Notes under the pieces: generated by a model
What the model saw: only the letters and a program-made list of their open reading frames with translations
What the model was told of the DNA's origin: nothing
Database searches by the model: none
Program-made: the position numbers and the translations under genes
Part shown: one piece after another, positions 32,011 through 48,928 of the stretch
How positions within the stretch are numbered: the stretch's first letter is position 1
Layout: every line of letters begins with the position of its first letter
Source of the DNA: Dyella ginsengisoli LA-4
GTDB taxonomy: Bacteria > Pseudomonadota > Gammaproteobacteria > Xanthomonadales > Rhodanobacteraceae
Reading direction: 5' to 3'
DNA: 64,000 bases
NCBI RefSeq assembly: GCF_000334915.1
Contig: NZ_AMSF01000055.1
Location: forward strand, 62,001 to 126,000

Positions 32011-32040
32011 AAGGACCTCTCTTCGGAGAGGTCTTTTTTT
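32011..32040 (+). terminator. Rho-independent terminator after pilA
   Basis: Stem GACCTCTC / GAGAGGTC with a stable TTCG tetraloop, preceded by AAAAG and followed by seven T residues. It separates the first pilin from the second. Confidence 0.93.
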
Positions 32041-32100
32041 ACGACCGTGGCATAACGGCTGCATACTTCTGCGGGACCAATCAGGGGGTTGAATTCCGTC

Positions 32101-32535: not shown

Positions 32536-32605
32536 TCATGCTCAGCTGATTCACCGAGACCCATTCAATATGCCATGCTCCCAGCTCTCAGGGGAGCCGT
32601 TTTAC

Positions 32606-34543
32606 ATGACCGCATCACGTTCGCAGCTGTTTCTGCTCGGGGCCACGTTAGTTGTCTGCACTCTGATTTACTGGCCCGCGTTGCACGGCCCGTTCCTGTT
32701 CGACGATTTCCCCAATCTCGCCGCCCTGACCAGCATCGACCATGTGTCGAGCTGGCGCGACCTGGGCATCTACCTGTCGCAGCCGCGGGATTTTCCCGGC
32801 CGGCCGGTGGCGATGCTGAGCTTCCTGCTGCAGAAGTCCGACTGGCCGGATCATCCGTTTCCGTTCAAGCTGGTGAATCTCTCGCTGCACCTGGTGGTGG
32901 GATTGCTGGTGTATGTGCTGACCAGGCGCCTGGCTAGGCTCTGGCTCGCCACCACCCAGGACGAGGACACGGCTCGCGCAGCGCGCGCCGACTGGGCCGC
33001 CCTGTTCGCCGCCGCGGCGTGGTTGCTCAACCCGATCCAGCTGTCCGGGGTCTCGTTGGTGGTGCAGCGGATGACCCTGCTGATGGCGCTGTTCACCGTC
33101 ACCGGGCTGCTGACATACCTGCACGGCCTGTTGCGCGAGGATCTCCCCTCATGGCGTCGTGGCGCCTGGATGGCGCTCGGGCTGGGCGCCGGCACCGGTC
33201 TGGCGCTGCTCAGCAAGGAGAACGGCCTGCTGCTCCCGCTCTACGCGCTGGTGATCGACAGCACGCTGATCAGCGACCGGGTGAAGCGACTGCCGCGCGC
33301 ACTGGCCTGGTGGCGACGGCTGCTGATCTGGCCCATCGTGCTGTTCGTGGTCGGCTTCCTGCTGTGGATCATCCCCATCAGCCTGCACGCCGGAATACGC
33401 GACTTCTCACTCGGCGAGCGCCTGCTGACCGAGCCACGGGTGCTCGCCAGCTACCTCGGCAAGATCTTCCTGCCGCGCTTCGGCCTGTACGGGCTGTACC
33501 ACGATGACTTCATGGTCTCGCGCGGCCTGCTCTCGCCCTGGACCACCCTGCCGGCGCTCGCCCTCGTGCCGGCGATAGCAGGTGCCGCGCTGTTCGGCCG
33601 GCGCCGCTGGCCGCTGTTCGCGCTGGCAGTGCTCTGGTACCTGGGCGGGCAGTTGCTGGAGAGTTCAACGATCATGCTCGAGCTGTATTTCGAGCATCGC
33701 AACTACGTGCCGATCATCGGCCCGTTCGTGGCGCTGGGGCTGGCCCTGGCACGAACGGCTCCGGGCACGGCGCGACGCCTGGCTTCGGTGCTGGCCGTGG
33801 CCTGGCTGGCCGCCTGCACCCTGACCACCGCGCTCAGTGCACGCACCTACAGCTCGGCCGACCGGCTGGCGCTGACCTGGGCCAACACCGACCCCGATTC
33901 GATCCGCGCGCAGACGTTCCTGGTCGAGCGCCTCACCCAACACGGCCAGTTGCGGGCCGCGCTGGATGTGCTAGACCGGTCCATCCGGCAGTATCCATTC
34001 AGCAGCAACCTAGCCGGTGATCGCGTGTATCTGCGTTGCCTGCAGGGAACGCTAGACGAGTCAGACCTTGATCATCTCGAAAGGACTTTCAGGGAGGCCC
34101 CCTTCGATCGCGCCGGCTTCAGCAACATGGAGCAACTGCGAAACCTGGCAGCGGCCCACCAGTGCACGGCACTTACGCCAGGACGCTGGTGGTCGCTGAG
34201 CGATGCCATGCTGGCCAACCCGGCCTATGCACAGAACGGCGTGGCCGCCGGCTTCCTGCATTACCAGCGACACTTCTGGGCGGTGAGCCAGGGCAACCTC
34301 GCACTGACCATCGCCGAGCTCCAGGCCGCCTATCAGAACGATCCGGACGCCGAGATCCCGCGGCTGGAGGCGAAGTACCTGGTCAGTGCAGGACTTTACG
34401 ATCGGGCGATCGACACCCTGCAGCATGCGGACTACCGGCGGCTGCCGCAATTGCGCCGGCTGCTGGTAGATGACCGGGCGATCAACGCGGAAGACATCGC
34501 GACCATCCGCCAGATGCAAGCCAAGAACGGGGCGGGTCACTAA
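32606..34543 (+). CDS. GT-C fold membrane glycosyltransferase with C-terminal TPR-like domain (copy 1)
   Basis: A 645-residue protein with about ten membrane helices up to residue 430, then a soluble helical TPR-like region. The first loop has FDDFPNL (acidic GT-C motif); later RMTLLMALFTVTGL, LLSKENGLLLPLYAL, GLYGLYHDDF and LYFEHRNYVPIIGP are characteristic of TMTC-like (DUF1736-related) glycosyltransferases. Similar genes often sit next to pilA in gammaproteobacteria, so pilin glycosylation is a fair inference, not proven. The ATG at 32606 (AGGGGAG upstream) is preferred to 32570. Copy 2 follows directly. Confidence 0.75.
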   Translation: MTASRSQLFLLGATLVVCTLIYWPALHGPFLFDDFPNLAALTSIDHVSSWRDLGIYLSQPRDFPGRPVAMLSFLLQKSDWPDHPFPFKLVNLSLHLVVGLLVYVLTRRLARLWLATTQDEDTARAARADWAALFAAAAWLLNPIQLSGVSLVVQRMTLLMALFTVTGLLTYLHGLLREDLPSWRRGAWMALGLGAGTGLALLSKENGLLLPLYALVIDSTLISDRVKRLPRALAWWRRLLIWPIVLFVVGFLLWIIPISLHAGIRDFSLGERLLTEPRVLASYLGKIFLPRFGLYGLYHDDFMVSRGLLSPWTTLPALALVPAIAGAALFGRRRWPLFALAVLWYLGGQLLESSTIMLELYFEHRNYVPIIGPFVALGLALARTAPGTARRLASVLAVAWLAACTLTTALSARTYSSADRLALTWANTDPDSIRAQTFLVERLTQHGQLRAALDVLDRSIRQYPFSSNLAGDRVYLRCLQGTLDESDLDHLERTFREAPFDRAGFSNMEQLRNLAAAHQCTALTPGRWWSLSDAMLANPAYAQNGVAAGFLHYQRHFWAVSQGNLALTIAELQAAYQNDPDAEIPRLEAKYLVSAGLYDRAIDTLQHADYRRLPQLRRLLVDDRAINAEDIATIRQMQAKNGAGH

Positions 34544-34544
34544 G

Positions 34545-36524
34545 ATGGCCCGAGGCGACCCTTTCGGTCGCCGCTCGTCTACTACGGCTCCGATGCGCCA
34601 TACCAAGCTTCCGCCCATGCCCAGGGCATGGCCGCTGTACCTGGCCATGCTGGTCACCGCCTGCGTCTATTGGCCGGGTCTGTCCGGCGGCTGGCTGTTC
34701 GACGACTACCCGAACATCGTCGACAACCATGGCGTCCAGCCCGATCACGCCAGCGTGGCCATGCTGACGCGGGCAGCGCTCTCCTCGCCGTCGAGCCAGT
34801 TCAAGCGCCCGCTGTCGTCCCTCACGTTCGCCGCCAACTACCTCGCCGCCGGCCTCGATCCGTTCTGGATGAAGGCCACCAACCTGCTGATCCACCTGCT
34901 GAACGGCGCACTCGTGTTCGCCCTGTCGCGAAGACTGCTTCGCTGCGCCTCGCGGGACGCCCCCGGCGACCCCGCCCGCGAAGCCGTCCTCGCCGGGTTG
35001 ATTGCCGCGGCCTGGCTGTTGCTGCCGGTCAACCTGACCGGGGTGCTCTATGTGGTGCAGCGCATGGAGAGCCTGGCCAACCTGTTCGTGCTGATGGGCT
35101 TGCTCGGGTATGTCGCCGGCCGCCAGAGGATGCTCGAGGGCCGCACCACGTCCGGCCTGTGGCTGTGCTGCGCCAGCGTCATCGCCGGCACCGCCATCGG
35201 ACTCACCGCCAAGGAAACCGCCGCCATGCTCCCGCTCTATGCCGCACTGGCAGAGTGGGTGCTTTTCGATTTTCGCGATCGTCAGCGGCGCCGCAGCCTT
35301 CCGGTCCTGGGCCTGTTCGTGGTCACGCTGCTGCTGCCGCTGGTGCTCGGCCTGGCCTGGCTTCTCCCTGGCCTGCTGCAACCGGCTACCTGGGCCACAC
35401 GGGATTTCACCCTGCGCACCAGGCTGCTGAGCGAGGCACGCATCGTCTCGGACTACATCGGATGGACGCTGGCGCCCACCCCGGGTGACCTCTCGTTCTA
35501 TCACGACGATTTCCATGTCTCGCAAGGCTGGCTGCAGCCATGGACCACGCTGCCGAGCGCACTCTTGCTGGTCTCGCTCGGCTGGATGGCGGTGCGCCTG
35601 CGCCGACGGTATCCGCTGGCCTCGCTGGGCATCGCGCTGTTCCTGGGATGCCACCTGCTCACCGGCACCATCCTGCCGCTGGAGCTGATCTACGAGCACC
35701 GCAATTATTTCGCCAGCTTCGGACTGCTGCTGGCGGTCATACCGGCGCTTGCCGCGATGCCTGCACCGGCACGCCCGGCATTCGCGTTGACCCGCCGCAC
35801 ACTGCTGGGCGCCCTGCTTGCCTGGTGGGCCCTGCTGACCGCCATGACGGCACAGGCCTGGGGCAATCCGCTGTCGCTGGCGGTGGAGCTGGCCGACCGG
35901 GCTCCCCACTCGCCGCGCGCGCAGTACGAATTGGGCCGGACCTACATCATCTACTCGCGCTACGACCCGGAATCCCGCTTCACCCGGCTGGCGTACGCGC
36001 CGCTGGAGCGCGCCATGAAACTGCCCGACAGCTCGATCCTGCCGGAGCAGGCGCTGATCTTTATGAACTCCCGGATGCATCTCCCGATCAAGGATGCATG
36101 GTGGGACAGCCTGATCGGCAAGTTGAGGGCCCGGAAGCCTGGCGTACAGGACGAGAGCTCACTTGCAGCGTTGACCCAGTGTGCCCGCGATGGACACTGC
36201 CCACTGCCTACAGAGAAGATGGTCGCAGCCTTCCAAGCCGCCATTTCCCACGCAGCCCCCAGCCCCAGACTGCTTTCGAGCTATGGCGATTACGCCTGGA
36301 ATATTCTAAAGGACCACGAGCTGGCCTTCAGGATGGCAAAAGCGGCAAGTGCCGCCGATCCACGCGAGCCAGCCTATCGGATCACCTTGGCGCGGGAGGC
36401 CCTGGCGCTGGATCAGGTCAGCGAAGCGCGAATCCAGATCCGGGAGCTAGAGAAGCTAGATGTGGCGGGCTCCCTGGATGCGGACATCCATGAACTGACC
36501 GCCGAACTCCCCGCTAGTCATTGA
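34545..36524 (+). CDS. GT-C fold membrane glycosyltransferase with C-terminal TPR-like domain (copy 2)
   Basis: A 659-residue paralogue of the preceding gene with the same landmarks in the same order: FDDYPNI, RMESLANLFVLMGLLGY, LTAKETAAMLPLYA, DLSFYHDDFHVSQGWL and LIYEHRNYFASFG. The C-terminal ~210 residues are helical and TPR-like, more diverged than the membrane part. The start chosen (34545) lies one base after the copy 1 stop, with GGGGCGGG upstream; later ATGs at 34593 and 34617 are possible. Tandem duplication followed by divergence suggests two acceptor or donor specificities. Confidence 0.75.
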   Translation: MARGDPFGRRSSTTAPMRHTKLPPMPRAWPLYLAMLVTACVYWPGLSGGWLFDDYPNIVDNHGVQPDHASVAMLTRAALSSPSSQFKRPLSSLTFAANYLAAGLDPFWMKATNLLIHLLNGALVFALSRRLLRCASRDAPGDPAREAVLAGLIAAAWLLLPVNLTGVLYVVQRMESLANLFVLMGLLGYVAGRQRMLEGRTTSGLWLCCASVIAGTAIGLTAKETAAMLPLYAALAEWVLFDFRDRQRRRSLPVLGLFVVTLLLPLVLGLAWLLPGLLQPATWATRDFTLRTRLLSEARIVSDYIGWTLAPTPGDLSFYHDDFHVSQGWLQPWTTLPSALLLVSLGWMAVRLRRRYPLASLGIALFLGCHLLTGTILPLELIYEHRNYFASFGLLLAVIPALAAMPAPARPAFALTRRTLLGALLAWWALLTAMTAQAWGNPLSLAVELADRAPHSPRAQYELGRTYIIYSRYDPESRFTRLAYAPLERAMKLPDSSILPEQALIFMNSRMHLPIKDAWWDSLIGKLRARKPGVQDESSLAALTQCARDGHCPLPTEKMVAAFQAAISHAAPSPRLLSSYGDYAWNILKDHELAFRMAKAASAADPREPAYRITLAREALALDQVSEARIQIRELEKLDVAGSLDADIHELTAELPASH

Positions 36525-36552
36525 ACCACCCGCCCAAACCGGAATCGATCGC

Positions 36553-37740
36553 GTGGCAACCAAGCGCATTCAAACCACCAAAGACCTGGCGATCAACGGA
36601 GCACCACCCGCCTTCGAGGAGCCGCTGCACGTCGGTCGTCCGAACATTGGCGACCAGAAACGCTTCCTCGAGCTGACCAGCCAGATCCTCGATAACCGCT
36701 GGCTCACCAACAACGGCCCCTTGGTTCGCGAACTTGAGTCGAAAATCGCGTCCCTGCTGGGCGTGAAGCATTGCATCGCCATGTGCAATGGCACCGTGGC
36801 GCTGGAAATCGCCATTCGAGCACTGGGTCTGGAAGGCGAGGTGATCGTACCTTCCTACACGTTCATCGCCACCGCTCACGCCCTGCACTGGCAGGCGATC
36901 ACACCCGTTTTCGCAGACATCGACCCTTCCACGCACAACCTCGACCCTGACTCGGTGCGGCGAATGATCACCCCGCGCACCACGGGCATCATCGGTGTGC
37001 ACTTGTGGGGTCGCGCCGCTCCGGTCGATGAGCTACAGGCCATTGCAGACGAGCATGGGCTGAAGCTCATGTTCGATGCCGCGCACGCCTTTGGCAGCAC
37101 CTACAAGGGGCAGACCATCGGAAGCTTTGGCGCCTGCGAGGTGCTCAGCTTCCATGCAACCAAAGCTTTCAACACCATGGAGGGCGGTGCCGTCGTCACC
37201 AATGACGACGAGCTCGCCGAGACTATCCGCCTGATGCGCAACTTTGGCTTCAACGGCTATGACAACGTCATCCACCCCGGCACCAACGGCAAGATGATCG
37301 AAGTATGCGCCGCCATGGGGCTCGCCAACCTCGACGGCTTCGATGACATCGTCGCGGTCAACCGGCGCAACCATGACGCCTACAAGCGCGCGTTGAACGA
37401 CATTCCTGGCATATCAGTGCTGGAATACGGATCCTCCGAGAGGAACAGCTATCACTACCTAGTAGTAGAAGTGGGCGCGCGTTGCCCGGCAGGCCGTGAT
37501 GAGATTGTTGCCGCTCTCCAAGCTGAAAACATTCTGGCACGCAAGTACTTCTGGCCTGGCTGCCACAAGATGAAACCCTATCGCGACCTATATCCCCACG
37601 CTGGTTTGCTGTTGCCCAACAGCGAAGCTGTAGCCGGTCGAGTTATCGTGCTCCCGAACGGCGCCGCGGTGGATGATGTCGCGGTGTCCACCATCCGCGA
37701 CGTCATCGTCGCACTTATCGACAAAAGGCCCATATCGTGA
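36553..37740 (+). CDS. DegT/DnrJ/EryC1/StrS family sugar aminotransferase
   Basis: A 395-residue PLP enzyme of the nucleotide-sugar aminotransferase family. K204 in FHATKAFNTMEGGAVV is the Schiff-base lysine and D175 (FDAAHAF) pairs with the PLP nitrogen. The FHATK form is typical of VioA/RffA-like enzymes that aminate C4 of dTDP-4-keto-6-deoxy sugars. The start is GTG at 36553. The stop overlaps the ACP start by four bases, so sugar amination and ACP chemistry are translationally coupled. No dehydratase (rmlB-like) is present nearby. Confidence 0.9.
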   Translation: MATKRIQTTKDLAINGAPPAFEEPLHVGRPNIGDQKRFLELTSQILDNRWLTNNGPLVRELESKIASLLGVKHCIAMCNGTVALEIAIRALGLEGEVIVPSYTFIATAHALHWQAITPVFADIDPSTHNLDPDSVRRMITPRTTGIIGVHLWGRAAPVDELQAIADEHGLKLMFDAAHAFGSTYKGQTIGSFGACEVLSFHATKAFNTMEGGAVVTNDDELAETIRLMRNFGFNGYDNVIHPGTNGKMIEVCAAMGLANLDGFDDIVAVNRRNHDAYKRALNDIPGISVLEYGSSERNSYHYLVVEVGARCPAGRDEIVAALQAENILARKYFWPGCHKMKPYRDLYPHAGLLLPNSEAVAGRVIVLPNGAAVDDVAVSTIRDVIVALIDKRPIS

Positions 37741-37976
37741 CCATCGACGACTTCATCGAGAAATTCGCCTTCGCCATTGAGGTCGAAGCCGACACGCTCA
37801 CGCCGGACACCCGTTTCAAGGAGCTCCCGAGCTGGGATTCACTCAACACGCTGGCGGTCATCGCCATGGCGGATGCCGACTATGGCGTGACCGTGACCGG
37901 ACGTGACATCGAGGCGTCCTCAACGGTGAACGATATCTGGGCCATCGTTTCTTCGAAGAGCACGGCGGCAAAATGA
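37737..37976 (+). CDS. Dedicated acyl carrier protein
   Basis: A 79-residue ACP-like protein. The phosphopantetheine attachment serine is S35 in SWDSLNTL; the downstream helix (VIAMADADYGVTVTGRDI) is also typical. It is diverged from the fatty-acid ACP (DSLD replaced by DSLN, fewer acidic residues around the site), as in pathway-specific carriers. It starts with GTG in a GTGA overlap with the aminotransferase and overlaps the first KASIII by four bases. Confidence 0.9.
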   Translation: MTIDDFIEKFAFAIEVEADTLTPDTRFKELPSWDSLNTLAVIAMADADYGVTVTGRDIEASSTVNDIWAIVSSKSTAAK

Positions 37977-39034
37977 ACGCAGTCACGGGCGTCGCGCTCC
38001 GCGCGGTGACGGCAGCGACGCCGACCCGCGTGGCGCGCACGGCGGACTATGCCTATCTCGAACCTGAGGAACGCCAGCGTTTCCAGAAGGCTACCGGCAT
38101 CGCCGAGCGCCGCATTGTGGCCGCGGGGCAGTGCGCGTCCGACCTTTGCCTGGCGGCAGCCAGGGCGGCACTGGCCCACCTCGACTGGGATCCGGCCAGC
38201 CTTGGTGCGCTGATCCTGATCACCCAGACCGGCGACCAGCCGGTCCCGGCAACCAGCATCGTGCTGCAGGACAAGCTCGGCCTGCCGTCGACCTGCATGG
38301 CGTTCGACATCAACCTCGGATGCTCGAGCTACCCCTATGGGCTGGCCGTGGCCGGCTCGGTGATGCGCACGCTGGGCATCACCCGCGGACTGCTGCTGAT
38401 CGGGGACGTCTCCAGCCGTGTTTGCGCCGAGCATGACAAAAGCGCCTGGCCCTTGTTCGGCGATGCCGGTTCCGCCACCGCGCTGGAGCTGGACGAAAGC
38501 GCGCCTCCCATCCATCTCGACCTGTGCTCCGACGGTGCCGGCAAGGAGGCCATCATCATTCCCGGCGGCGGCCTGGCGTCCCGGCTGCCACCCGTCGACG
38601 GACGCATTGCCGATGTCACCGGCAGCGACGGCGTGCAGCGCCGCGCCGACAACCTGGTGCTGCGCGGCGCGGACATTTTCAGCTTCGCCATTTCGCGCGT
38701 GCCAGGCAGCATCCAGCGTGCCATCGCCAGCAGCGGCCGCGCGGCGCAGGACTTCGATTTCCTGCTGCTGCACCAGGCGAACCGGATGATCAACGACACC
38801 ATCGCCCGCAAGCTCGGGTTCGCGCCGGATCGGGTGCCCACGTCGATCGAGCACTACGGCAACACGAGCTCGGCGTCCATCCCGGTGACCTTGTGCGCCA
38901 ACGCCGCCTTGTTCGATGTACCCCGCTGGGTGGTCGCCTCGGGCTTCGGCGTGGGCCTGTCCTGGGGGAGCGCCACCTTCCAGCTGCCGGCGGCCGCCGT
39001 GCTCCCCTGCATCGACACCGACGATGTCTATTGA
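37973..39034 (+). CDS. 3-oxoacyl-ACP synthase III-like enzyme (first of two)
   Basis: A 353-residue thiolase-fold condensing enzyme with the FabH triad Cys117 (NLGCSSYPYG), His267 (LLLHQANRM) and Asn297 (HYGNTSSAS). It would condense a short acyl-CoA or acyl-ACP with malonyl-ACP on the dedicated ACP encoded just upstream. It is longer than housekeeping FabH (about 320), with an insertion around residues 175-230, and carries FGVGLSWG near the end like the second copy. It overlaps the ACP (4 bp) and Rieske (11 bp) genes. Confidence 0.88.
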   Translation: MNAVTGVALRAVTAATPTRVARTADYAYLEPEERQRFQKATGIAERRIVAAGQCASDLCLAAARAALAHLDWDPASLGALILITQTGDQPVPATSIVLQDKLGLPSTCMAFDINLGCSSYPYGLAVAGSVMRTLGITRGLLLIGDVSSRVCAEHDKSAWPLFGDAGSATALELDESAPPIHLDLCSDGAGKEAIIIPGGGLASRLPPVDGRIADVTGSDGVQRRADNLVLRGADIFSFAISRVPGSIQRAIASSGRAAQDFDFLLLHQANRMINDTIARKLGFAPDRVPTSIEHYGNTSSASIPVTLCANAALFDVPRWVVASGFGVGLSWGSATFQLPAAAVLPCIDTDDVY

Positions 39035-40061
39035 TCGGCGCTGCTACGGCGATCCCGGCGTCTTCGCGCGCGAGCTGGAGACGATCTTCGCCGAGCGGTT
39101 GTTCGTCGGTACGCAGGCCGACTTTGCCCGGCCCGACGACTACCGCAGCCTGCGGATCGGCCGCAAGGCGGTGACCATTCGCCGCACGCGCAGCGGCGTG
39201 CGCGCGTTCGACAACGTCTGCCTGCACCGCAATGCGCTGATCGACTTGCCGGGTTGCGGCAACCGGCCGTTCCGTTGCGGCTACCACGGCTGGAGCTACG
39301 CCGACGATGGCGCACTCGCCGCGGCCCCGCTGGCCGATAGGGCCGGCATCGCCAGGTGCCGGCTGGGCAGTTACCCGGTCAGCGAATCGGACGGCCTGCA
39401 TTTCCTTGGGCTGGGTGGCGCGGCACCGGTCGTCGACGAGGTGGCGCAGGTGCTGGCCGACACCGGCGTCGTGCCGGATACGCCGTTCCATGCCGCTGTC
39501 ATGGAGCATGCCTGCAACTGGAAACTGCTGGTGGAGAACGTGCTCGAGGGCTACCACCTCAGTTTCGTCCATGGCAACAGCTTCAGGCCTGCGGGCTTCA
39601 CCTCCACCGGCCGCTACGCCTGGCATGGCGGCCGACACACCTCGTGGAGCGAATTGCTCTCCGCCGACGCGGCGGACAAGACCGCGGCGCTTCGCCGCCT
39701 CGCGCCGCAGGCCGGGCACTTCTATCGCCATGCCTACGTCTTCCCGGACCTGTTCCTGTCCAATACCAATGGCCTGGTCGGTTTCCTCAGCCACGTCATC
39801 CCGGAGGACGCGACGCGCACGCGGCTGGCCTGGCGGCTGTTCGAGCTGCCTGCCCTCAAGGCGCTGCCGCCTGCGCTGCGGCAGCACATGCAAGAGGAGG
39901 CGATCGCCTTCACGCAGCAAGCGCTGGCGGAGGACAAGGTCCTGGTCGAGGCTTGCCAGCAGGGGCTGGAGGCGGAAGGCTTTGAGGTGCAGTTGCAGCC
40001 CCAGGAGGCGCGCATCGCGCACTTCCATGCGCTTTACCTGGCGAGGACGAACGATGTTTGA
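39024..40061 (+). CDS. Rieske [2Fe-2S] ring-hydroxylating-type oxygenase
   Basis: A 345-residue oxygenase alpha-subunit-like protein. The Rieske cluster ligands are C66-x-H68 (VCLHRN) and C85-x2-H88 (CGYHGW). The mononuclear iron site has H178 and H183 in EGYHLSFVHG, with E175 in the bridging position. It probably hydroxylates or desaturates a small substrate using electrons from a reductase that is not encoded nearby. It overlaps the KASIII gene by 11 bases and the SDR gene by 8, so it belongs to the ACP pathway. An oxygenase of this type is unusual in a glycan cluster. Confidence 0.87.
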   Translation: MSIDRRCYGDPGVFARELETIFAERLFVGTQADFARPDDYRSLRIGRKAVTIRRTRSGVRAFDNVCLHRNALIDLPGCGNRPFRCGYHGWSYADDGALAAAPLADRAGIARCRLGSYPVSESDGLHFLGLGGAAPVVDEVAQVLADTGVVPDTPFHAAVMEHACNWKLLVENVLEGYHLSFVHGNSFRPAGFTSTGRYAWHGGRHTSWSELLSADAADKTAALRRLAPQAGHFYRHAYVFPDLFLSNTNGLVGFLSHVIPEDATRTRLAWRLFELPALKALPPALRQHMQEEAIAFTQQALAEDKVLVEACQQGLEAEGFEVQLQPQEARIAHFHALYLARTNDV

Positions 40062-40788
40062 AGGCAAGACGCTGCTCGTTACGGGCGCTACTTCGGGGAT
40101 CGGTTTCGCCACGACACGGCGATTGCTGGCCGAGGGCGCCAAGGTGGTGGCCGTCGGCCGCAATCCGCAGCGCCTTGCGGAACTTGTGCAGCATGGCGGC
40201 GACGCGGTGTTGCCACTGGCTTTCGACCTCACCGATTTCGCGCGCTATCGCGAGGTGCTCGCTCCGGTGCCGGCACTGGATGGCGTGGTCCATTCCGCCG
40301 GCATCGTGGAGAACAACCCGTTGCGCTTCTTCTCGCTGGAAACGCACCAGCGCATCGTGGCGATCAACCAGACGGCGCCACTGGCCCTGGTGGCCGAGCT
40401 CGCGCGCGGCAACAAGCTCAATGCCGGTAGCGCGATCGTCTTGCTTTCCTCCATCCTCGGTCCGGAAGTAGGCATCAAGGGCACGGCCAGCTATGCGGGC
40501 ACCAAGGCGGCGTTGACTGCGTTTGCGCGGGTGATGGCACTGGAACTGGCACACAAGGGCATACGCGTGAACTGCGTGGCTCCCGGCATGGTGCAGACCG
40601 AACTCGTGGACGATCTCCATCAACTGTCGGAGGAGGCGTTGCAGGCCGATCGCGCCCGCTACCCGTTGGGCAAGCGCTACGCGACGGCTCTCGAGGTCGC
40701 CGCCGCCATCCGCTTCCTGCTCTCGTCCGATGCGGCCTTCATGACTGGCCAGACGCTTGTCGTCGATGGCGGATTCACGGCCCAATGA
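40054..40788 (+). CDS. SDR family reductase, FabG-like
   Basis: A 244-residue short-chain dehydrogenase. TGATSGIG (10-17) binds NADP(H), S132/S133, Y147 and K151 form the active site, and VDGGFTAQ ends the protein as in FabG. In this operon it most likely reduces the 3-oxoacyl-ACP made by the KASIII enzymes to 3-hydroxyacyl-ACP. It overlaps the Rieske gene by 8 bases and the acyltransferase gene by four. Confidence 0.92.
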   Translation: MFEGKTLLVTGATSGIGFATTRRLLAEGAKVVAVGRNPQRLAELVQHGGDAVLPLAFDLTDFARYREVLAPVPALDGVVHSAGIVENNPLRFFSLETHQRIVAINQTAPLALVAELARGNKLNAGSAIVLLSSILGPEVGIKGTASYAGTKAALTAFARVMALELAHKGIRVNCVAPGMVQTELVDDLHQLSEEALQADRARYPLGKRYATALEVAAAIRFLLSSDAAFMTGQTLVVDGGFTAQ

Positions 40789-41414
40789 GCGCGAAGCCCC
40801 TCCTGCTGCTGGGTCGTGGCGGCTTTGGCCGCGAGGTGGCTGCGTGGATCTCGGCGCGAGCCATGCCGTTCGCCGTCATGGGCTTTCTCGACGATGAAAA
40901 CCCCGGCGAGCCCGACGTGCTGGGACCGATCCAGGGCCATGAGCCGCGGCAGGACGCAAGCTACCTCACCTGTTTCGGTGACGGGCGTGCACGGCACAAG
41001 GTCCGCACGCAATTGCAGGCGCGCGGCGCGCGTTTCGCCAGCCTGGTTTCCCCCGACGCGATGACCGCGACGCCGCTGGAGGATGCAATCAACAGCATTT
41101 TCCTTGGCGCCTGCAGCATCTCCGCCGGCGTGGCGCTGGGTGACGACCTGCTGGTGCAGGGGTTCGCCGTGGTGGGTCACGACGTCGCCATCGGCACCGG
41201 CGTCACCATCAGCTCGCATGCCTTCATTGGCGGCCACGCCAGGCTGGGGCCGTTCTGCACGATTCATCCGCACGCCGTGGTGTTGCCGCATATCGTGGTC
41301 GGAGAGGGGGCCGTCGTTGGCGCAGGAGCCGTGGCAATCAGGGACGTCGCGCCATACACCACCGTCTTCGGCTCACCCGCCAAGGTCATCGCATACGGCA
41401 AGCCTCATGACTGA
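40785..41414 (+). CDS. NeuD/PglD-like hexapeptide-repeat acyltransferase
   Basis: A 209-residue sugar O/N-acyltransferase: an N-terminal Rossmann-like half with GRGGFGREV (10-18) and FLDDE, then left-handed beta-helix hexapeptide repeats from about residue 105. H132 (VVGHDVAIG) corresponds to the catalytic histidine of PglD. Relatives acylate the amino group of UDP- or dTDP-4-amino sugars. In this context it may use the acyl group from the dedicated ACP rather than acetyl-CoA. Overlaps: four bases upstream, eight downstream. Confidence 0.88.
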   Translation: MSAKPLLLLGRGGFGREVAAWISARAMPFAVMGFLDDENPGEPDVLGPIQGHEPRQDASYLTCFGDGRARHKVRTQLQARGARFASLVSPDAMTATPLEDAINSIFLGACSISAGVALGDDLLVQGFAVVGHDVAIGTGVTISSHAFIGGHARLGPFCTIHPHAVVLPHIVVGEGAVVGAGAVAIRDVAPYTTVFGSPAKVIAYGKPHD

Positions 41415-42381
41415 CGTCTATCTCAACCTGATTGCCTCCGCACATGGCTCGCAAACCGAGTTCAACGATGCCGACACGTTGGGGCAGCCTGCCGCAGACT
41501 GCGATCGTATCGTCAAAAAGACTGGGGTACTGAGCCGACCGATCGTCGGGGAGAGGGAATACACCAGTGACCTGGCTTTGCGTGCCACGGAGCAATTGCT
41601 TCTGCAAAGCACGAGTACCGCCAGTGAATTTGACGGGCTGATCGTTTGCACGCAGACGCCCGATCACTTGATTCCCGGCGTCTCGTCGCGAGTACACGGC
41701 AAGCTTGGCTTCAGACAAGACTGCTACACCATGGACATCAACCAGGGTTGCAGCGGATTCATCTATGGCGCCCATCTCATGGCTGCGATGGTGCGGAGCA
41801 AGGCGTTGCAACAAGCAGTCTTGGTAAACGCCGACTGCTACACGCGGCTGATTCGGCACGATGACCTCACAACCCGCGTGTTGTTCGGCGACGCGGCGAC
41901 TGCAACCATCTTCTCGACCCAGCCCAGTGGCTTTCGATTGCTCTATTCCCGCTGCTATGCGGACGGCACCGGCTATGAGGACTTCATCGCCCGGGGCTCG
42001 GCTATCCAGCCTGACAGAGGCATTGCCCAGGGCATCCATATGAATGGACCGGGCATCCTGTCATTCGCTCTGCGGGTGGTGCCAGACGCTGTTGATTCCG
42101 CATTGAAGGACAACGGGCTAAACAGGAAAGATATTCGGATGTTTGCTTTTCATCAGGCGAACAGTTTCGTTCTCGGCAAGCTTGCCTACAAGATGGGCCT
42201 GGAGAATGACCAAGTCCCGCAGAACTGCGCGGAACTGGGAAACACGGTGTCCGCGTCCATCCCGCTGCTGTTGCTGGACCAGCAGGATCATCTGAAGCGT
42301 GGTGATCTGGTTCTGGCGATAGGCTTCGGCGTAGGTCTGTCCTGGGGGGGAGCGCTGCTTGAGTATGTAGGCAACGACTGA
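41407..42381 (+). CDS. 3-oxoacyl-ACP synthase III-like enzyme (second of two)
   Basis: A 324-residue KASIII with Cys115 (INQGCSGFIYG), His249 (FAFHQANSF) and Asn279 (ELGNTVSAS). The overall identity to the first KASIII looks low apart from these sites and the shared FGVGLSWGGA ending, so the pair is not a recent duplication. Either two successive condensations or two starter choices are possible. The start overlaps the acyltransferase stop by eight bases. It is the last of the tightly overlapping genes; the flippase follows after 26 bp. Confidence 0.88.
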   Translation: MTDVYLNLIASAHGSQTEFNDADTLGQPAADCDRIVKKTGVLSRPIVGEREYTSDLALRATEQLLLQSTSTASEFDGLIVCTQTPDHLIPGVSSRVHGKLGFRQDCYTMDINQGCSGFIYGAHLMAAMVRSKALQQAVLVNADCYTRLIRHDDLTTRVLFGDAATATIFSTQPSGFRLLYSRCYADGTGYEDFIARGSAIQPDRGIAQGIHMNGPGILSFALRVVPDAVDSALKDNGLNRKDIRMFAFHQANSFVLGKLAYKMGLENDQVPQNCAELGNTVSASIPLLLLDQQDHLKRGDLVLAIGFGVGLSWGGALLEYVGND

Positions 42382-42407
42382 ACCTGCTACTCACGGCGCT
42401 TACACAT

Positions 42408-43865
42408 ATGTCAAATCTCGAACGACGTGCGGCCAATGCAGCATGGTGGAGCACGCTGGAGATCCTGACACGCTACGGCGTGCAGTTTCTTGTCATGGTT
42501 GTGTTGGCGCGACTGCTCTCGCCGGCCGATTTTGGCCTGATTGCGATTTTGTTGGTATTTACCAGCGTCGGCACGCTGCTGGTCGACTCGGGTTTCGGGG
42601 CGGCACTGGTACAGCGCCAGCGCACAACAGCTGACGACGAAACTACCGTCTTCATCTTCACGGTCGGCGCGAGCATTCTCACCGCCAGCATTCTGGTGCT
42701 CGCCGCTCCGGCCATTGCAGTCTTTTTCCACGAGCCAAGGCTGGCAAATCTGACTCGCGTCATGGCGCTGGTGTTGCCGCTCGGAGCTCTCGCTTCAGTG
42801 CCAGATGCGCTGTTGACGATGCGGCTCGACTTCAAGGCGCGCGCACGTGCGGAAGTGATTGCCTCGTTGTGCTCGGGAGCCGTAGCGGTGGTGCTGGCAT
42901 TGCGTGGGTTCGGCGTGTGGAGCCTGACGTGGCAGAGCATCGTTTCGATCGGCGCACGAGGACTCCTGTTGTGGCTCTATTCCGGATGGCGGCCGCGCGG
43001 TCGCTATAGCGGAGCATCGTTCCGCAGCCTGTTCGGGTTCGGTGGCTACATGCTGCTCTCGGGATTGCTCAACGCGGCTGCCATGCGCCTGCAATCGCTG
43101 TTGATCGGCAAGTTGTTCGATGCAAGCTCACTGGGGTACTACACCCTCGCGCAGAATACCCAACAGGCTCCCGCCTCGTTGATTGACGGCATTCTTAAAC
43201 GGGTGGGCTTACCGGTCTTTTCCACGATCGCGCAGGACCGGGCCAGGCTGCGATCTGCCTTCAGGGCGTCGCTGCGCATGGCGATGTTCCTGTTTGTCCC
43301 CTGCATGGTGGGTATCGCGCTAGTCGCCAGGCCGCTGATCGAACTAGTTTACGGAGCACGCTGGAGCCCCGCGGCGCCCATCCTGAGCATTCTGTCCCTG
43401 AGCGCCGCACTGTGGCCCATCCACGTACTCAACTTGGCGGCCATCGGTGCACAGGGGCGATCGAATCTGCTGTTGAGGGTGGAAGTTATCAAGCAAGTCG
43501 TAGGTATCCTGCTGATCGCCAGTGCCTCACCCTGGGGACCGCTTGCCATCGCCTGGGCCGTACTTTTCTCTAGCCTTTTTGGCGTAGGCATGAACGCCTA
43601 TTACTCGAAAAGACTGCTCGATTACGGCCCATTCGCGCAGTTGCTAGATCAGTCCGCGACCTTCGCATTGTCGCTGGTGGCGGCACTGGTTGGCTGGATG
43701 ATTCTGCAATGGGCGAGGCCCGGGCCCGCGTCGATGCTTGGTGCCATTGCGGCGGCAGGCATGGTTTATGGCACGCTGGCCGTTCTTACGCGAAATACTG
43801 CGCTGAACGGCTTGTTGACCATCGTGCGCACGCTGCGCGAGAGGTCCGACACACCGACCCAATGA
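42408..43865 (+). CDS. Lipopolysaccharide/oligosaccharide flippase (Wzx/MOP superfamily)
   Basis: A 485-residue polytopic protein with about 14 predicted helices, opening with MSNLERRAANAAWWSTLEILTRY, VMVVLARLLSPADFGLIAI and SGFGAALVQRQ, as in WzxC/TuaB-type exporters. It would flip a lipid-linked saccharide to the periplasm, where the GT-C enzymes or a polymerase could use it. It is AT-richer than the housekeeping flanks, like the genes on either side. Confidence 0.88.
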   Translation: MSNLERRAANAAWWSTLEILTRYGVQFLVMVVLARLLSPADFGLIAILLVFTSVGTLLVDSGFGAALVQRQRTTADDETTVFIFTVGASILTASILVLAAPAIAVFFHEPRLANLTRVMALVLPLGALASVPDALLTMRLDFKARARAEVIASLCSGAVAVVLALRGFGVWSLTWQSIVSIGARGLLLWLYSGWRPRGRYSGASFRSLFGFGGYMLLSGLLNAAAMRLQSLLIGKLFDASSLGYYTLAQNTQQAPASLIDGILKRVGLPVFSTIAQDRARLRSAFRASLRMAMFLFVPCMVGIALVARPLIELVYGARWSPAAPILSILSLSAALWPIHVLNLAAIGAQGRSNLLLRVEVIKQVVGILLIASASPWGPLAIAWAVLFSSLFGVGMNAYYSKRLLDYGPFAQLLDQSATFALSLVAALVGWMILQWARPGPASMLGAIAAAGMVYGTLAVLTRNTALNGLLTIVRTLRERSDTPTQ

Positions 43866-43887
43866 TGCCTGTCAACGAGACCGCAAC

Positions 43888-44910
43888 ATGACGCCAGCGT
43901 CCAACAGTGACGTATCGCACGATAGCCACGAAATCAGTGACCACCTTGCACTGGTCAAGCAGCCTGTTGTCAGTGTGCTCATGCTCGCCTACAACCACGG
44001 CCCCTACCTGGCGCAAGCGATCGACAGCGTGCTGGCCCAGCGAACCGACTTGCCGATCGAGTTGCTTATCGGCGAAGACTGCTCGACCGACAACACCCGT
44101 GACGTCGCACTGCGGTATCAAGAGGCGCATCCGGACATCATCCGGGTCATCACTGCCGACAGGAACGTTGGCTCGACCTTGAATCATCGACGAATCCTGC
44201 TCGCTGCGCGTGGCGAGTTTTACGCCTATCTCGACGGCGACGATTACTGGCTTCCGGGAAAGCTTCTTCGTCAAATCAACTACTTGCGCGAGCATTCTGA
44301 CTGTGTCGCAGTCTTTACCAATGCCCAGACGGTCGATCAGAACAGCCAAAGCATCGGTATATTCAATGATGTCGGAGATGGGCAGTTCGGCTTGGGCGCA
44401 CTTTTGCGTCGAGGCAATTTTCTCAACAACAGCTCGGTGGTCTATCGCGCGACATCTCGCTCAGCCCTGCTCGAAATCGAAGTTGCATCAATCGACTATC
44501 GCGGGCATTTACTGCTGGCTCGAAACGGCTTCTTGGCACATTTGTCAGAACCGTTGGTTTCCTACCGTATCGGTTCGACTGGATCGATGGTGGCACACGA
44601 TAACAACCGTGTTCGCCAGCTCTACTGGGAGGCAATTATGAGTGTGCCTCGTGAGATGGTCACAGATGATGACCTCGCACACGGCATCGCCGACTTCATC
44701 CGACGCGTATTCTATCGGTCGCTGCGGACGCGCCAGATCAAGCTGCTGAGGGAGTGGTTGCCACGCGCGTTGCGCGCATCGCCATATGGAACGACACGGA
44801 CTATTTTACTGGCAGCTGGATCGATTCTGCGCATTGCTTACAAGGAAGTCATCGGCCGAATCCGCAAAGACGCGCGCGGTAATCCATCCAAAGTGCTATA
44901 TCGTCGCTAG
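43888..44910 (+). CDS. Family 2 glycosyltransferase (VioT-like)
   Basis: A 340-residue GT-A enzyme. VSVLMLAYNHGPYLAQAIDS, LLIGEDCSTDNTRD and YLDGDDYWLPGKL (DxD metal motif) mark the catalytic domain; the C-terminal 100 residues are basic and helical. This GED-CSTD subtype includes transferases of N-acylated amino deoxysugars. It begins 22 bp after the flippase and is visibly low in GC compared with the pil genes, suggesting transfer. Confidence 0.87.
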   Translation: MTPASNSDVSHDSHEISDHLALVKQPVVSVLMLAYNHGPYLAQAIDSVLAQRTDLPIELLIGEDCSTDNTRDVALRYQEAHPDIIRVITADRNVGSTLNHRRILLAARGEFYAYLDGDDYWLPGKLLRQINYLREHSDCVAVFTNAQTVDQNSQSIGIFNDVGDGQFGLGALLRRGNFLNNSSVVYRATSRSALLEIEVASIDYRGHLLLARNGFLAHLSEPLVSYRIGSTGSMVAHDNNRVRQLYWEAIMSVPREMVTDDDLAHGIADFIRRVFYRSLRTRQIKLLREWLPRALRASPYGTTRTILLAAGSILRIAYKEVIGRIRKDARGNPSKVLYRR

Positions 44911-44926
44911 CGTGCCTCACTGGAAC

Positions 44927-45706
44927 ATGATGAAACTCGTCAAACTCGCCAAATATGTGCTAGCGGGCTGGGTACCTGGCGGCCGGTGCCGGTGTGTGTT
45001 ATGTGGCCACCGAGTATGGCGTTTCATGCCTTACATGCATGGGTCGGCAGGCGTGCCTGAACTTATGCGCGTAATCGACACTGTTGGCAGCGACCCCGAT
45101 TGGTTTGAATGTCCCCGTTGCGGAGCACACGACCGAGAGCGGCACTTATTGATGTATCTGGAGAAGACCAACATGCTGGCGGGCATGCGTGGTAAGTCCG
45201 TGCTGCATTTCGCACCGGAAAGGCGACTTGCACTACGCATTATCGATGTGGCGCCCGCTCGATACGTTCCCTGCGACCTCTACCCGAGCTCCCCCAATGT
45301 ACAGCGTGTCGATATGCTTCAAATGCAGTTCGCCGATCAGTCGTTTGACCTGGTCATCGCAAACCACGTACTAGAGCACGTCGACGACGATGTGAGGGCG
45401 CTCAACGAAGTTCGTCGCGTGCTCAAGCCCGGGGGGTATGCCATCCTGCAGACGCCGTACAGCGAAAAATTGCATCGTACTTGGCAGGACCCGGGCATCG
45501 ACACGGATGCTGCGCGACTGCAGGCTTATGGCCAAGCCGATCATGTCCGCCTGTTCGGGCGGGACATCTTCGATCGCATCGCATCGCAGGGATTCGACAA
45601 CCTGGTCGGGCGACACGACGAACTGTTGCCCGGTGTCGACACCTTGCACACCGGCGTCAATCCGGCCGAACCGTTTTTCCTGTTCCGCAGAAGGTCAACC
45701 GGCTAG
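44927..45706 (+). CDS. Class I SAM-dependent methyltransferase with N-terminal zinc-ribbon-like cysteines
   Basis: A 259-residue protein. N-terminal cysteines C21, C23, C26 and C62, C65 (CRCVLCG and CPRCG) resemble a zinc ribbon. The SAM domain is compact: VLHFAPERR, then VDMLQMQFADQSFDLVIANHV, LEHVDDDVRALNEVRRVLKPGG. It is probably a sugar O- or N-methyltransferase finishing the cluster product. Start codons at 44927 or 44930 are preferred although the frame opens earlier. Its TAG stop shares a CTAG with the convergent glycosyltransferase. Confidence 0.82.
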   Translation: MMKLVKLAKYVLAGWVPGGRCRCVLCGHRVWRFMPYMHGSAGVPELMRVIDTVGSDPDWFECPRCGAHDRERHLLMYLEKTNMLAGMRGKSVLHFAPERRLALRIIDVAPARYVPCDLYPSSPNVQRVDMLQMQFADQSFDLVIANHVLEHVDDDVRALNEVRRVLKPGGYAILQTPYSEKLHRTWQDPGIDTDAARLQAYGQADHVRLFGRDIFDRIASQGFDNLVGRHDELLPGVDTLHTGVNPAEPFFLFRRRSTG

Positions 45707-46740
45707 GTCAGGTCAGGCAAGCCGTGCCGGACCAGCACGCGGAGTTTCTGGGGGATCTTGTCCAGCAACCCGACATAACTCCAGAAGCCCATGACGCGCC
45801 CGGCCTGCGCTGCACTGCGCGCCTTGATCAGCGTCGGCAGGAGGCCAACGGCCCCCTTGATCGCCGGCCAGTAGATGCGTGTCCAGACACCGACGTCACG
45901 CATCAACGCACACAGGGCGAAGCCTTCAAGACAGAGCACCGCTAGATGGATCAGGAACCAGGGCCAGGCAGCCCAGGTCGGGGTACAGACCAGCACCAGG
46001 CACGCCCTGTTGCGCTCGCTGAGAAAACGCCGCCGATAGCTCGTCCGCAACTTGCCGTCGACGACGCGATTGCCGCCGAAACTTGTTCCCTGCCGATGGA
46101 GATAGCCGCTGCGTTCCACTACGGAGACGACGCCTCCCTTCAAGCGTGCAAGCAGGCACAGGTAGGTATCCTCCACGTTCGAGACCATCCACTCGGGAAA
46201 GCCGCCGAGGGCCATCCACGCGCTCCTGCCGATGAACAGACAGGCGCCCTGGACGTACGCCAGATCGGCCCGGCCCGGGAGCCGCGAAGGCATCGGCGTG
46301 TGGAACACGTCCAGCCGCACGCCCCTGTCGACAAGCGCCCCGGACTCCGGGTCGTACTGCGGTAGCGAGAGGACCGTCAGTTCCGGCTGACCTTCCGCCG
46401 CATCGACGAGAACCTCGAGCGCATCGGGCCTGAGGGTCGCGTCATTGTTGAGCAAGAGCAGAAACCGCCCTCTTGCCCTCAAAGCCATGCGGTTGTTCGC
46501 CAGGCAGTACCCGACATTCTTCGAGCTCTCGATGACTTCCACACGTGGATGGCGTGACCTCAGCACCGCAAGGGATGCATCGCTGGACGCATCATCATGC
46601 ACGATGATTTCAACGGGGTATGGGAGGGTCTGTGCGTAGACGGACTCGAGGCACGGGTCGAGTAGTTGCTCTCCGTTGAAATTCGCTATGCATACGCTGA
46701 CCAGAGGATCCGGAGCGCCCCGCTCACGGTCCGTATTCAT
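45703..46740 (-). CDS. Family 2 glycosyltransferase (rhamnosyltransferase-like)
   Basis: A 345-residue GT2: VSVCIANFNGEQLLDPCLES, VHDDASSDAS, NVGYCLANN and LLLNNDATLRPDAL are the donor- and metal-binding motifs of the rhamnosyltransferase-like (WcaA/RfbF) group, followed by GACLFIGRSAWMALGGFPE. The C-terminal third has one or two hydrophobic helices. It is the third gene of a leftward GT operon, overlapping the upstream GT4 gene by four bases. Confidence 0.9.
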   Translation of the reverse strand: MNTDRERGAPDPLVSVCIANFNGEQLLDPCLESVYAQTLPYPVEIIVHDDASSDASLAVLRSRHPRVEVIESSKNVGYCLANNRMALRARGRFLLLLNNDATLRPDALEVLVDAAEGQPELTVLSLPQYDPESGALVDRGVRLDVFHTPMPSRLPGRADLAYVQGACLFIGRSAWMALGGFPEWMVSNVEDTYLCLLARLKGGVVSVVERSGYLHRQGTSFGGNRVVDGKLRTSYRRRFLSERNRACLVLVCTPTWAAWPWFLIHLAVLCLEGFALCALMRDVGVWTRIYWPAIKGAVGLLPTLIKARSAAQAGRVMGFWSYVGLLDKIPQKLRVLVRHGLPDLT

Positions 46741-47903
46741 GCAAGGCTCCGGTAAAGATCCAGATGCATGCGCGCGATCGTGGGCCAGTCATAGCCGCTG
46801 ACGGCCCGAAGCTGGAGCTGCCCGGCAACGGCAAGCGTATCGGGAGCACGCAGCTTTTCGAGCAGCCTGCGGGCAAGCTCGTCCGCGTCCCCTGGGCGGA
46901 CTATCCAGGTGTCGTCGATGGCCAGGTCGGGAAGCGCGCCGACGCGACTGACCAGGACGGGACAACCCATCGCTGCCGCACGACAGGCTGCGCCGGATTG
47001 GCCGGAGAGCCGACGATAAGGGAATACCGATAGTGCGCTGACCCTGATCAACGCGTCGATGTCCTCGTCGCTCTGAAACCCTTCCAACAGAACGATTCGG
47101 TCGCGCAAGGCGCGGCCTTCAAGCATCGCCTGGATGCCGGCCGCCTCCTCGCCGGTGCCGGCCAGGGAAGCAGCCAGTCTCCCGCCGATGCCCTGCCGAC
47201 CGCCCCACAGCCGCCCCGCGATCACCAGGACGACGTCGTCGAGTTCCGATCGCACGCTCGACCAGGCTTCGAGCAGCACATCCAGCCCCTTGTAACCCCG
47301 CAGATTCCCGAACAGCAGGACATGCCGCCGGGAGGGAGAGAGGCCGAGGCGCCGGTAATCCTGCTCGCTGGCCGGTGCTGGCTGCCGGAGTGGCGCGAGA
47401 CCATGCGGAACGACGTGCACGGGTGGCGTGCGGCGTCCCAATCGTCGCAGCACGTCTTCGCGCGCCGCCTCCCCATGCACCACCAGCGCGTCGGCGCTGC
47501 GCAGCAGCCGGTCTTCGAGCATCCGGAACATGCCGGACTTTTCGTGCGGCAGCGGATTGTGGACCGTCACGAGGACCTTCTTGCCCCGGCGATGCGCCAT
47601 CGCGGCAAGGGGCCATAGATAGCTCGAAAGGGGCGGGGCCCAGTGCTGGATATGAATGACATCCGCCGGCGCCCGTGCGACCTGGTTCCAACTGAGGGGG
47701 CTGGCCCAATGCAGGGCGCCGCCCGGTCCTTTCGCGCCCCCTCGCTCCGCGGGATGAAGCACGGACGGATAGGCGCTGGCAAAATCCACCCTGTCGACCT
47801 GTAGCCCCTCTTCCCGAGGCATGCTCCCGAACAGCGCATCACCATACGGACTGAGCCCGCGCACCGGTTGCCCGAACTGACAAACGAGCTGGACCCGCGT
47901 CAT
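46737..47903 (-). CDS. Family 4 glycosyltransferase
   Basis: A 388-residue GT-B enzyme of family GT4. The N-domain starts VQLVCQFGQPVRGLSPYGDALF. The C-domain has HVLLFGNLRGYKGLDVLLEAW and the EX7E-like region VSALSVFPYRRLSGQSGAACRAAAMGCP in parts. It transfers a sugar from a nucleotide or lipid donor at the cytoplasmic face. Middle gene of the leftward operon, 48 bp after the polyprenol-phosphate GT and overlapping the next GT by four bases. Confidence 0.9.
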   Translation of the reverse strand: MTRVQLVCQFGQPVRGLSPYGDALFGSMPREEGLQVDRVDFASAYPSVLHPAERGGAKGPGGALHWASPLSWNQVARAPADVIHIQHWAPPLSSYLWPLAAMAHRRGKKVLVTVHNPLPHEKSGMFRMLEDRLLRSADALVVHGEAAREDVLRRLGRRTPPVHVVPHGLAPLRQPAPASEQDYRRLGLSPSRRHVLLFGNLRGYKGLDVLLEAWSSVRSELDDVVLVIAGRLWGGRQGIGGRLAASLAGTGEEAAGIQAMLEGRALRDRIVLLEGFQSDEDIDALIRVSALSVFPYRRLSGQSGAACRAAAMGCPVLVSRVGALPDLAIDDTWIVRPGDADELARRLLEKLRAPDTLAVAGQLQLRAVSGYDWPTIARMHLDLYRSLA

Positions 47904-47951
47904 GGGTGTGAACGCCGTTCGTGGAGGCCGGGGAGTTCTTCCTCACTCATG

Positions 47952-48839: not shown

Positions 48840-48928
48840 AGCGCGGCGACCTCGCCTGCCGCTGCGCCCCGCCCCGGCCAAAGCCGGGACTGCTTCGCAT
48901 CTCCCGGAAATGGGTCCGACCGGAGCGC

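Follow-up and report, generated by a model that had tools for sequence, protein, structure and literature searches.

What does a tightly packed set of sugar and acyl-chain genes make in the middle of a pilus locus, and which surface structure does it serve? The set in question lies at 36553–42381 of a 64,000 nucleotide stretch of Dyella ginsengisoli LA-4 (contig NZ_AMSF01000055.1, positions 62,001 to 126,000), the whole of which we call the window. The locus is flanked on one side by two pilA genes, assigned by Pfam Pilin, and on the other by pilB, pilC and pilD, named from a reading of their translations. The explanation that best accounts for the whole, and which we hold to be likely, is that these seven genes form an exchangeable module producing an acylated 4-amino-sugar nucleotide for a short glycan on pilin. 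Gene content, order, motifs, conservation, block exchange and both genomic contexts of the module were observed directly, and the GT-C fold of a neighbouring protein was seen in a model. Open reading frame (ORF) calls and translations confirm the following order, in which KASIII stands for β-ketoacyl-acyl carrier protein synthase III and SDR for short-chain dehydrogenase/reductase.

36553..37740, plus strand: DegT/DesI-like sugar-nucleotide 4-aminotransferase (Pfam DegT, 9e-109)
37737..37976, plus strand: dedicated acyl carrier protein, ACP (Pfam PP-binding, 5.5e-05)
37973..39034, plus strand: KASIII-1, FabH-like, proposed first condensation (Pfam, NCBIfam)
39024..40061, plus strand: Rieske non-haem iron oxygenase, alpha subunit only (Pfam Rieske, Ring_hydroxyl_A)
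40054..40788, plus strand: FabG-like SDR ketoreductase (Pfam, NCBIfam)
40785..41414, plus strand: NeuD/VioB/PglD-like hexapeptide N-acyltransferase (TIGR03570, 6e-41)
41407..42381, plus strand: KASIII-2, FabH-like, proposed second condensation (Pfam, NCBIfam)

Are these genes intact and of the classes named? Pfam backs all seven assignments and NCBIfam agrees on the enzyme classes, with all scores below the curated cutoffs. The solved structure closest to the aminotransferase is DesI (2po3, E 8e-122), and its match to TIGR04427 DesI is 494 bits against a cutoff of 650. The N-acyltransferase is closest to VioB (7txp), and scores 140 bits for TIGR03570 (cutoff 160.8). With RmlB present in the source genome, above its own cutoff, these two nearest relatives indicate deoxythymidine diphosphate (dTDP)-4-amino-4,6-dideoxyglucose as the sugar nucleotide. 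Nine copies of the window's type were compared (the window, G002, D. lutea, G280, G184, G369, G199, Rhodanobacter lindaniclasticus and LL2), and all active-site motifs of the seven enzymes are intact in 9/9. The DegT motif HATK, with the pyridoxal phosphate lysine, the ACP serine motif WDSL and the Cys-His-Asn triad of KASIII-1 are each kept in 11/11 copies, and YxxxK of the SDR in 13/13 rows. Both the Rieske cluster and mononuclear-iron motifs (CxH...CxxH; D/E-xx-H-xxxx-H, Asp), which we take to be the iron ligands, and the triad of KASIII-2, which is 32% identical to KASIII-1, are kept in 9/9. The GHD motif of the NeuD-like enzyme is found in 10/11 copies, the exception being Variovorax with GYD, a Tyr at the histidine position.

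The successive overlaps among the seven genes are 4, 4, 11, 8, 4 and 8 bases. KASIII-2 is followed by a Wzx-type flippase, a family 2 glycosyltransferase (GT2) and a methyltransferase, at gaps of 26, 22 and 1 bases. The first-pass annotation had described just such an overlapping operon followed by these three genes, and the starts, overlaps and Pfam families bear it out. It stopped short of two upstream genes, TPR1 and TPR2, separated from each other by 46 bases and from DegT by 28. Every gap between 32609 and 45706 is 46 bases or less, and the packed unit could thus begin upstream, at these two 644 amino acid (aa) proteins with tetratricopeptide repeat (TPR) tails (32609–36524). Neither promoter-like sites (1 found, 2.8 expected) nor terminator-like sites (9 found, 9.1 expected) exceeded chance level, so transcription units were judged by spacing alone.

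Does the arrangement recur? A survey of 398 Xanthomonadales genomes with KASIII-1 as the query (E<=1e-60) found relatives in 31. The first-pass annotation had looked to co-occurrence in related genomes as a check, and the seven genes do stand together, in identical order, in 7/398 genomes including the source, all of the source's family; D. lutea has one additional gene between Rieske and SDR. Recurrence of the order in 7/398 genomes argues that the arrangement is more than chance. Rieske matches of at least 358 bits occur in exactly the same seven genomes, and seven others have weaker ones of 109–115 bits. Twenty of the 31 belong to two genera of Xanthomonadaceae, and DegT-ACP-KAS-SDR are adjacent in 20/20. 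Ten of these were fetched at 20 kb; all ten also have NeuD and Rieske genes, with fliC and fliD on the same stretch. In the remaining four the KASIII stands without the other cassette genes, apart from a weak ACP-like match next to it in two.

Named genome contigs with the cassette are those of R. lindaniclasticus, a Lysobacterales bin, D. lutea and LL2.bin48, and R. lindaniclasticus and LL2.bin48 are two records beyond the seven survey genomes. The search of genome contigs for Rieske relatives was examined for the best 80 of 118 stretches. Four of these 80 carry the cassette at 49–96% Rieske identity. A fifth, Variovorax at 26%, has a cluster in the order DegT-ACP-KAS-SDR-SDR-NeuD-Rieske-Rieske, and none of the other 75, many of them mycobacterial, has two or more additional cassette genes in its stretch. 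No relative of the Rieske protein was found in viral contigs. Plasmid matches to it came from 484 records, all below 60% identity (27–30% in the ten rows listed).

Has the module moved? In LL2.bin48, a metagenome bin, it follows flgJ-, flgK- and flgL-like genes (Pfam, names by reading). After it come an opposite-strand 1391-aa protein with GT4 and GT2 domains and, downstream of the module, two fliC-like genes detected by tblastn. Compared with the window, this copy is 92% identical in ACP, 98% in KASIII-1, 96% in Rieske and 98% in SDR, and 78% in DegT, 89% in NeuD and 58% in KASIII-2. A search of the LL2 genome, a bin of unstated completeness, gave no TPR2 relative. A scan with 300-base windows along the module gave the same picture for the window against both G280 and LL2: 63–80% over most of DegT, 87–99% from ACP to most of NeuD, and 60–66% in KASIII-2, with sharp steps near 37.65–37.75 kb and 41.15–41.3 kb. 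The flanks of the window and G280 are less alike (TPR2 69%, pilB 83%). G280, at a pilin locus, and LL2, at a flagellin locus, are 84–97% identical across the whole module. D. lutea shows the opposite mosaic against the window, with TPR2 at 97% and the first half of DegT at 91–99%, then 58–79%. To judge by these sequence comparisons, genomes have exchanged the block from ACP to NeuD, which acts as an exchangeable unit. The seven genes look like a movable module for an N-acylated 4-amino sugar, with the neighbours probably setting the target.

What, then, are the neighbours on the pilin side? Four genes precede the module.

31537..31980, plus strand: PilA-like type IV pilin 1, the likely glycan acceptor (Pfam Pilin 7.1e-19, N_methyl)
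32101..32535, plus strand: PilA-like type IV pilin 2 (Pfam Pilin 4.1e-22)
32609..34543, plus strand: TPR1, 644 aa, GT-C-like by homology to TPR2 (37% identity over 434 residues)
34590..36524, plus strand: TPR2, 644 aa, GT-C-fold glycosyltransferase-like with C-terminal TPR (AlphaFold2 model)

Neither TPR protein matches a Pfam or NCBIfam family. In the AlphaFold2 model of TPR2 (mean pLDDT 82), a GT-C fold at the N-terminus precedes a TPR tail, and structural alignment of residues 5–436 gave Z scores of 19.4 with Stt3, 17.5–18.1 with Pmt and 17.2 with ArnT. The model suggests that TPR1 and TPR2 probably belong to an uncharacterised family of pilin glycosyltransferases, and a fair reading is that a short glycan linked to a lipid phosphate would be handed over by the GT-C protein. 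All 7/7 pilin-type cassettes in the survey are downstream of pilA and TPR genes. Six of these loci have two pilA and two TPR genes, with one of each seen in G369, and G280 has a 591-aa ORF between TPR2 and DegT. TPR2 relatives (E<=1e-40) occur in 159/197 genomes of the family, with positions read in the fetched loci only. In five of five fetched loci without the cassette, one of which breaks off where its contig stops, the order pilA-pilA-TPR1-TPR2 is kept, and those that reach beyond TPR2 carry other glycan genes there. The region between pilA and pilB in these relatives is a variable glycan locus. The earlier proposal of a pilin or surface glycan agrees with a GT-C-fold model beside pilA and with the same cassette between flagellar genes elsewhere. 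Pilin is the target that the location points to.

Some further observations concern this region. The tandem pilins at 31537–32535 are 52% identical to each other, and two pilin genes are present in 11 of the 12 related loci mapped. After TPR2, loci L181, L183 and L185 have between them, among other genes, an ABC transporter and another DegT, together with GT-like and epimerase-like ORFs identified by reading. Upstream of the pilins, the window encodes a 457-aa protein (29713–31083) with no Pfam or NCBIfam match, and relatives of it are near pilA in L023, L136, L182 and L185.

Downstream of the module lie further glycan genes.

42408..43865, plus strand: Wzx-type flippase (Pfam Polysacc_synt_3, 2e-89)
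43888..44910, plus strand: family 2 glycosyltransferase, 340 aa (Pfam)
44912..45706, plus strand: S-adenosylmethionine methyltransferase, GTG start (Pfam)
45703..46740, minus strand: family 2 glycosyltransferase
46737..47903, minus strand: family 4 glycosyltransferase
47952..48881, minus strand: AglJ/ArnC/DPM-like polyprenyl-phosphate glycosyltransferase (TIGR04182, PDB)

The top NCBIfam match of the flippase is 'O-glycosylation flippase', at 267 bits against a cutoff of 720. The AglJ-like enzyme scores 117 bits for TIGR04182 (cutoff 325) and matches ArnC (PDB 9hwj) at 5e-16. A relative of it is present in four of the five cassette-free loci, the fifth being the one cut by a contig end.

From these parts we infer the reactions, the order of the steps, the substrate of the Rieske enzyme and the acceptor protein. 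DegT would aminate dTDP-4-keto-6-deoxyglucose, probably giving dTDP-Qui4N (viosamine), a nucleotide 4-amino-4,6-dideoxy sugar. On the dedicated ACP, KASIII-1 would build an acetoacetyl-type chain, to be reduced by the SDR. KASIII-2 would then most likely add a second two-carbon unit, for a chain of the 3,5-dihydroxyhexanoyl type. Oxidation by the Rieske enzyme would fall on the acyl chain or on the acylated sugar, and N4 would receive the chain from the NeuD-like enzyme. The sugar could join a short lipid-linked glycan through the GT2, the methyltransferase and the AglJ-like enzyme, be flipped by Wzx, and be transferred to pilin by the GT-C/TPR proteins. In LL2.bin48 the module, beside a large glycosyltransferase and flagellin genes, probably serves flagellin. 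Its presence there with a large glycosyltransferase, and at pilin loci with GT-C/TPR proteins, fits a separation of donor synthesis from the choice of target. The core of this route, from DegT to a 4-amino sugar, from ACP, KASIII and SDR to a hydroxyacyl group and from NeuD to N-acylation, was already in the first-pass annotation, and it is in keeping with DesI (2po3), VioB (7txp) and the available text of PMC3927599 and PMC6519341.

Is the chain really extended twice? A two-KAS cassette of Flavobacterium psychrophilum and the one-KASIII island of Pseudomonas syringae have different products, and by analogy a six-carbon dihydroxyacyl chain before oxidation would be favoured here. The alternative is a 3-hydroxybutyryl-type amide, with KASIII-2 serving in acyl transfer or proof-reading and a hydroxylation of the sugar or the short acyl group by the Rieske enzyme; this conflicts with the chain-length part of our explanation only. 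KASIII-fold enzymes can be acyltransferases, and the flagellar islands of Xanthomonas have a Rieske gene with one KASIII. We consider the alternative possible and on balance doubtful, as KASIII-2 is in every pilin-type copy, with a full Cys-His-Asn triad in 9/9, and the two-KAS precedent has a six-carbon chain in the available text of PMC6519341.

A second alternative concerns the destination: the acylated amino sugar might go to lipopolysaccharide (LPS) or another surface polysaccharide, and the pil neighbourhood be incidental. The pilin loci of relatives hold other glycan genes too, and the F. psychrophilum two-KAS cassette serves O-antigen, as far as the text at hand of PMC6519341 goes. We regard this destination as unlikely, given that the module follows pilA and the TPR genes in all seven pilin-type genomes, even with the extra ORF in G280, and that LL2.bin48 carries a near-identical module flanked by flgL and fliC-like genes. 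Nor was a Wzy or ligase found by family among the searched genes, although the 457-aa protein, TPR1 or TPR2 could hide one. A free small molecule or lipid, such as a signal or antibiotic, is a very improbable product: pathways to small molecules use KASIII, ACP, SDR and oxygenase enzymes too, but here DegT/DesI-like, VioB-like, Wzx, glycosyltransferase and methyltransferase genes share one packed unit, and the copies with enough context are at pilin or flagellin loci, Variovorax being less clear.

Several points weigh against our explanation. Wzx and several glycosyltransferases would fit an LPS or capsule glycan as well, and the window's Wzx was not found in three of the seven pilin-type stretches (G001, G280 and G184); G001 has a different flippase-family gene at its place. 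Helical proteins can reach Z scores of about 14 by chance, against 17–19 for TPR2 with GT-C enzymes, and likeness of fold does not establish function. The GT-C match came from a second aligner; Foldseek put mainly TPR proteins on top, its single match at E<=0.001 being a TPR-type protein complex. DegT and the NeuD-like enzyme fall below the curated NCBIfam cutoffs, which makes the sugar likely and not fixed. The likeness of the KASIII pair to WfpC and WfpE of F. psychrophilum is one of enzyme class. Finally, no electron-transfer partner of the Rieske enzyme (ferredoxin or reductase) was found by family among the searched genes (29713–48881). Other Rieske systems also borrow such partners.

Where does the Rieske enzyme come from? 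Rieske oxygenases have mostly been described in the breakdown of aromatic compounds and of betaine and carnitine, which agrees with the best matches here. A single origin of the pilin-type and Xanthomonas-type proteins is one reading of a 45-row tree, which unites them (99/95) via long branches flagged by the program. The alternative, pilin-type proteins with 14 non-cassette Rieske proteins, has p-AU 0.055, the grouping having been picked after the tree was seen. The G199 locus has a second Rieske gene and Variovorax has two. The Variovorax locus (L051:1479–12959) encodes a TPR-GT41 protein, DegT, ACP, KASIII, two SDR, NeuD, two Rieske proteins, a hexapeptide protein and an FkbM methyltransferase; the second Rieske gene is separated by about 4.5 kb from a pilin gene, and no flagellin was found.

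The additional D. lutea gene (L024:8660–9649, minus strand) encodes 330 aa. The protein has no Pfam match at E 5, a best PDB match of E 0.11 that is not convincing, and a single-sequence model of pLDDT 34 with no usable fold. An H139-x-D141...H265 pattern is present in 3/3 aligned copies; we take it to resemble the Fe/2-oxoglutarate oxygenase motif, and as a resemblance and nothing further. Relatives occur in 5/398 genomes, all five also with a KASIII-1-type cassette. Four of these are Xanthomonadaceae with the flagellar-type cassette and the relative at other coordinates; they belong to one genus and so are not independent. The surroundings of two of these Xanthomonadaceae relatives hold no cassette gene.

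Why might this matter? Serotype, recognition and the binding of phages can all hinge on the N-acyl groups that amino sugars carry, and to our knowledge the making of oxidised acyl groups is largely unassigned. We suggest, tentatively, that the module recombines between pilin and flagellin loci and between genera, re-targeting one surface sugar code between two fibres, and that the Rieske enzyme might oxidise a six-carbon acyl chain while it is bound to ACP or sugar, giving an undescribed glycan amide. The module is a compact set with every step open to in vitro testing. A comparison of its pilin-locus and flagellin-locus copies, 84–97% identical, would split donor synthesis from target choice. 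The Rieske oxygenase of Xanthomonas-type islands likewise gains a testable place in glycan biosynthesis, with no step assigned to it in those parts of the literature that were covered.

How does the locus compare with known systems? The combination with a Rieske gene has a counterpart in flagellar islands of Xanthomonas, and we take the gigX1-10 island of Xanthomonas oryzae to correspond to the XCV2007–XCV2013 cluster. In the available text of PMC3826837, XCV2007–XCV2013 has DegT, ACP, KASIII, SDR, acetyltransferase and Rieske genes clustered beside fleQ and flagellin. A ten-gene Xanthomonas island and an acetyltransferase are reported as necessary for flagellin glycosylation, and the ten-gene X. 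oryzae island as determining it (accessible parts of PMC8657755 and PMC4875605 for the former, of PMC8657755 for the latter). That text and the ten loci mapped here give the same enzyme classes as the window, Rieske included. However, the Xanthomonas islands have one KASIII, mostly two SDR, the Rieske gene last and a flagellar place, and their proteins are 23–45% identical to those of the window. The window departs from their order DegT-ACP-KASIII-SDR(-SDR)-NeuD-Rieske, having the Rieske gene fourth, a KASIII last and a pilin locus. Within the literature covered, which did not take in the 2018 X. oryzae island paper, the table of PMC3826837, in its available part, is alone in listing a Rieske gene next to genes for a flagellar glycan. 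The idea of combining a Rieske enzyme with such genes is therefore not itself new.

The first-pass annotation had likened the locus to the viosamine island of P. syringae, in which vioA, B, S, R, acp, M and T lead to N-(3-hydroxybutyryl)-2-O-methyl viosamine, with mutants analysed by mass spectrometry (PMC3927599, available text). The shared N-acyl route stands, as does a common set of aminotransferase, N-acyltransferase, KASIII, ketoreductase, ACP and methyltransferase; by class, the closest gene set is that of the Xanthomonas flagellar islands (PMC3826837, as available). Judged by family, the window has in one unit the 4-aminotransferase, ACP, KASIII, ketoreductase and NeuD/VioB-type enzyme of islands of the viosamine kind. 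It lies outside the P. syringae island in the narrow sense, its GT2 being of 340 aa and accompanied by Wzx and pil genes. The seven ORFs that the text names for the P. syringae island include a single KASIII and a 1,173-aa VioT but no Rieske gene, and the target of that island is flagellin.

In F. psychrophilum the O-antigen genes wfpC–wfpG comprise two KAS, ACP, a ketoreductase and a PglD-like enzyme, and the R-group genes vary by strain. Nuclear magnetic resonance of the polymer placed 3,5-dihydroxyhexanoyl on N4, with gene roles predicted (both from the text at hand of PMC6519341). The window has the same five components as this R1 cassette, by enzyme class only. The cassette differs in its substrate, UDP-Qui2NAc4N, in its LPS destination and, in the available account (PMC6519341), in having no Rieske gene; its R-group genes seem exchangeable, as does the block here. 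The first-pass annotation had taken the oxygenase and second KASIII as signs of a different product. Each has a precedent in the partial texts, the Rieske gene in Xanthomonas and the second KAS in F. psychrophilum. In Pseudomonas aeruginosa the available text of PMC11841053 describes TfpW as a GT-C enzyme, with the TfpW/TfpO gene associated with the pilin gene. The candidate glycosyltransferases TPR1 and TPR2 of the window are likewise pilin-associated and differ by their TPR tail, the likeness being one of gene neighbourhood. The cassette is thus real, well conserved and ordinary in kind, with one enzymatic step of interest, that of the Rieske enzyme. As far as our searches of the literature reach, the architecture of two KASIII plus Rieske, its pilin location and the interchange between pilin and flagellin loci are new.

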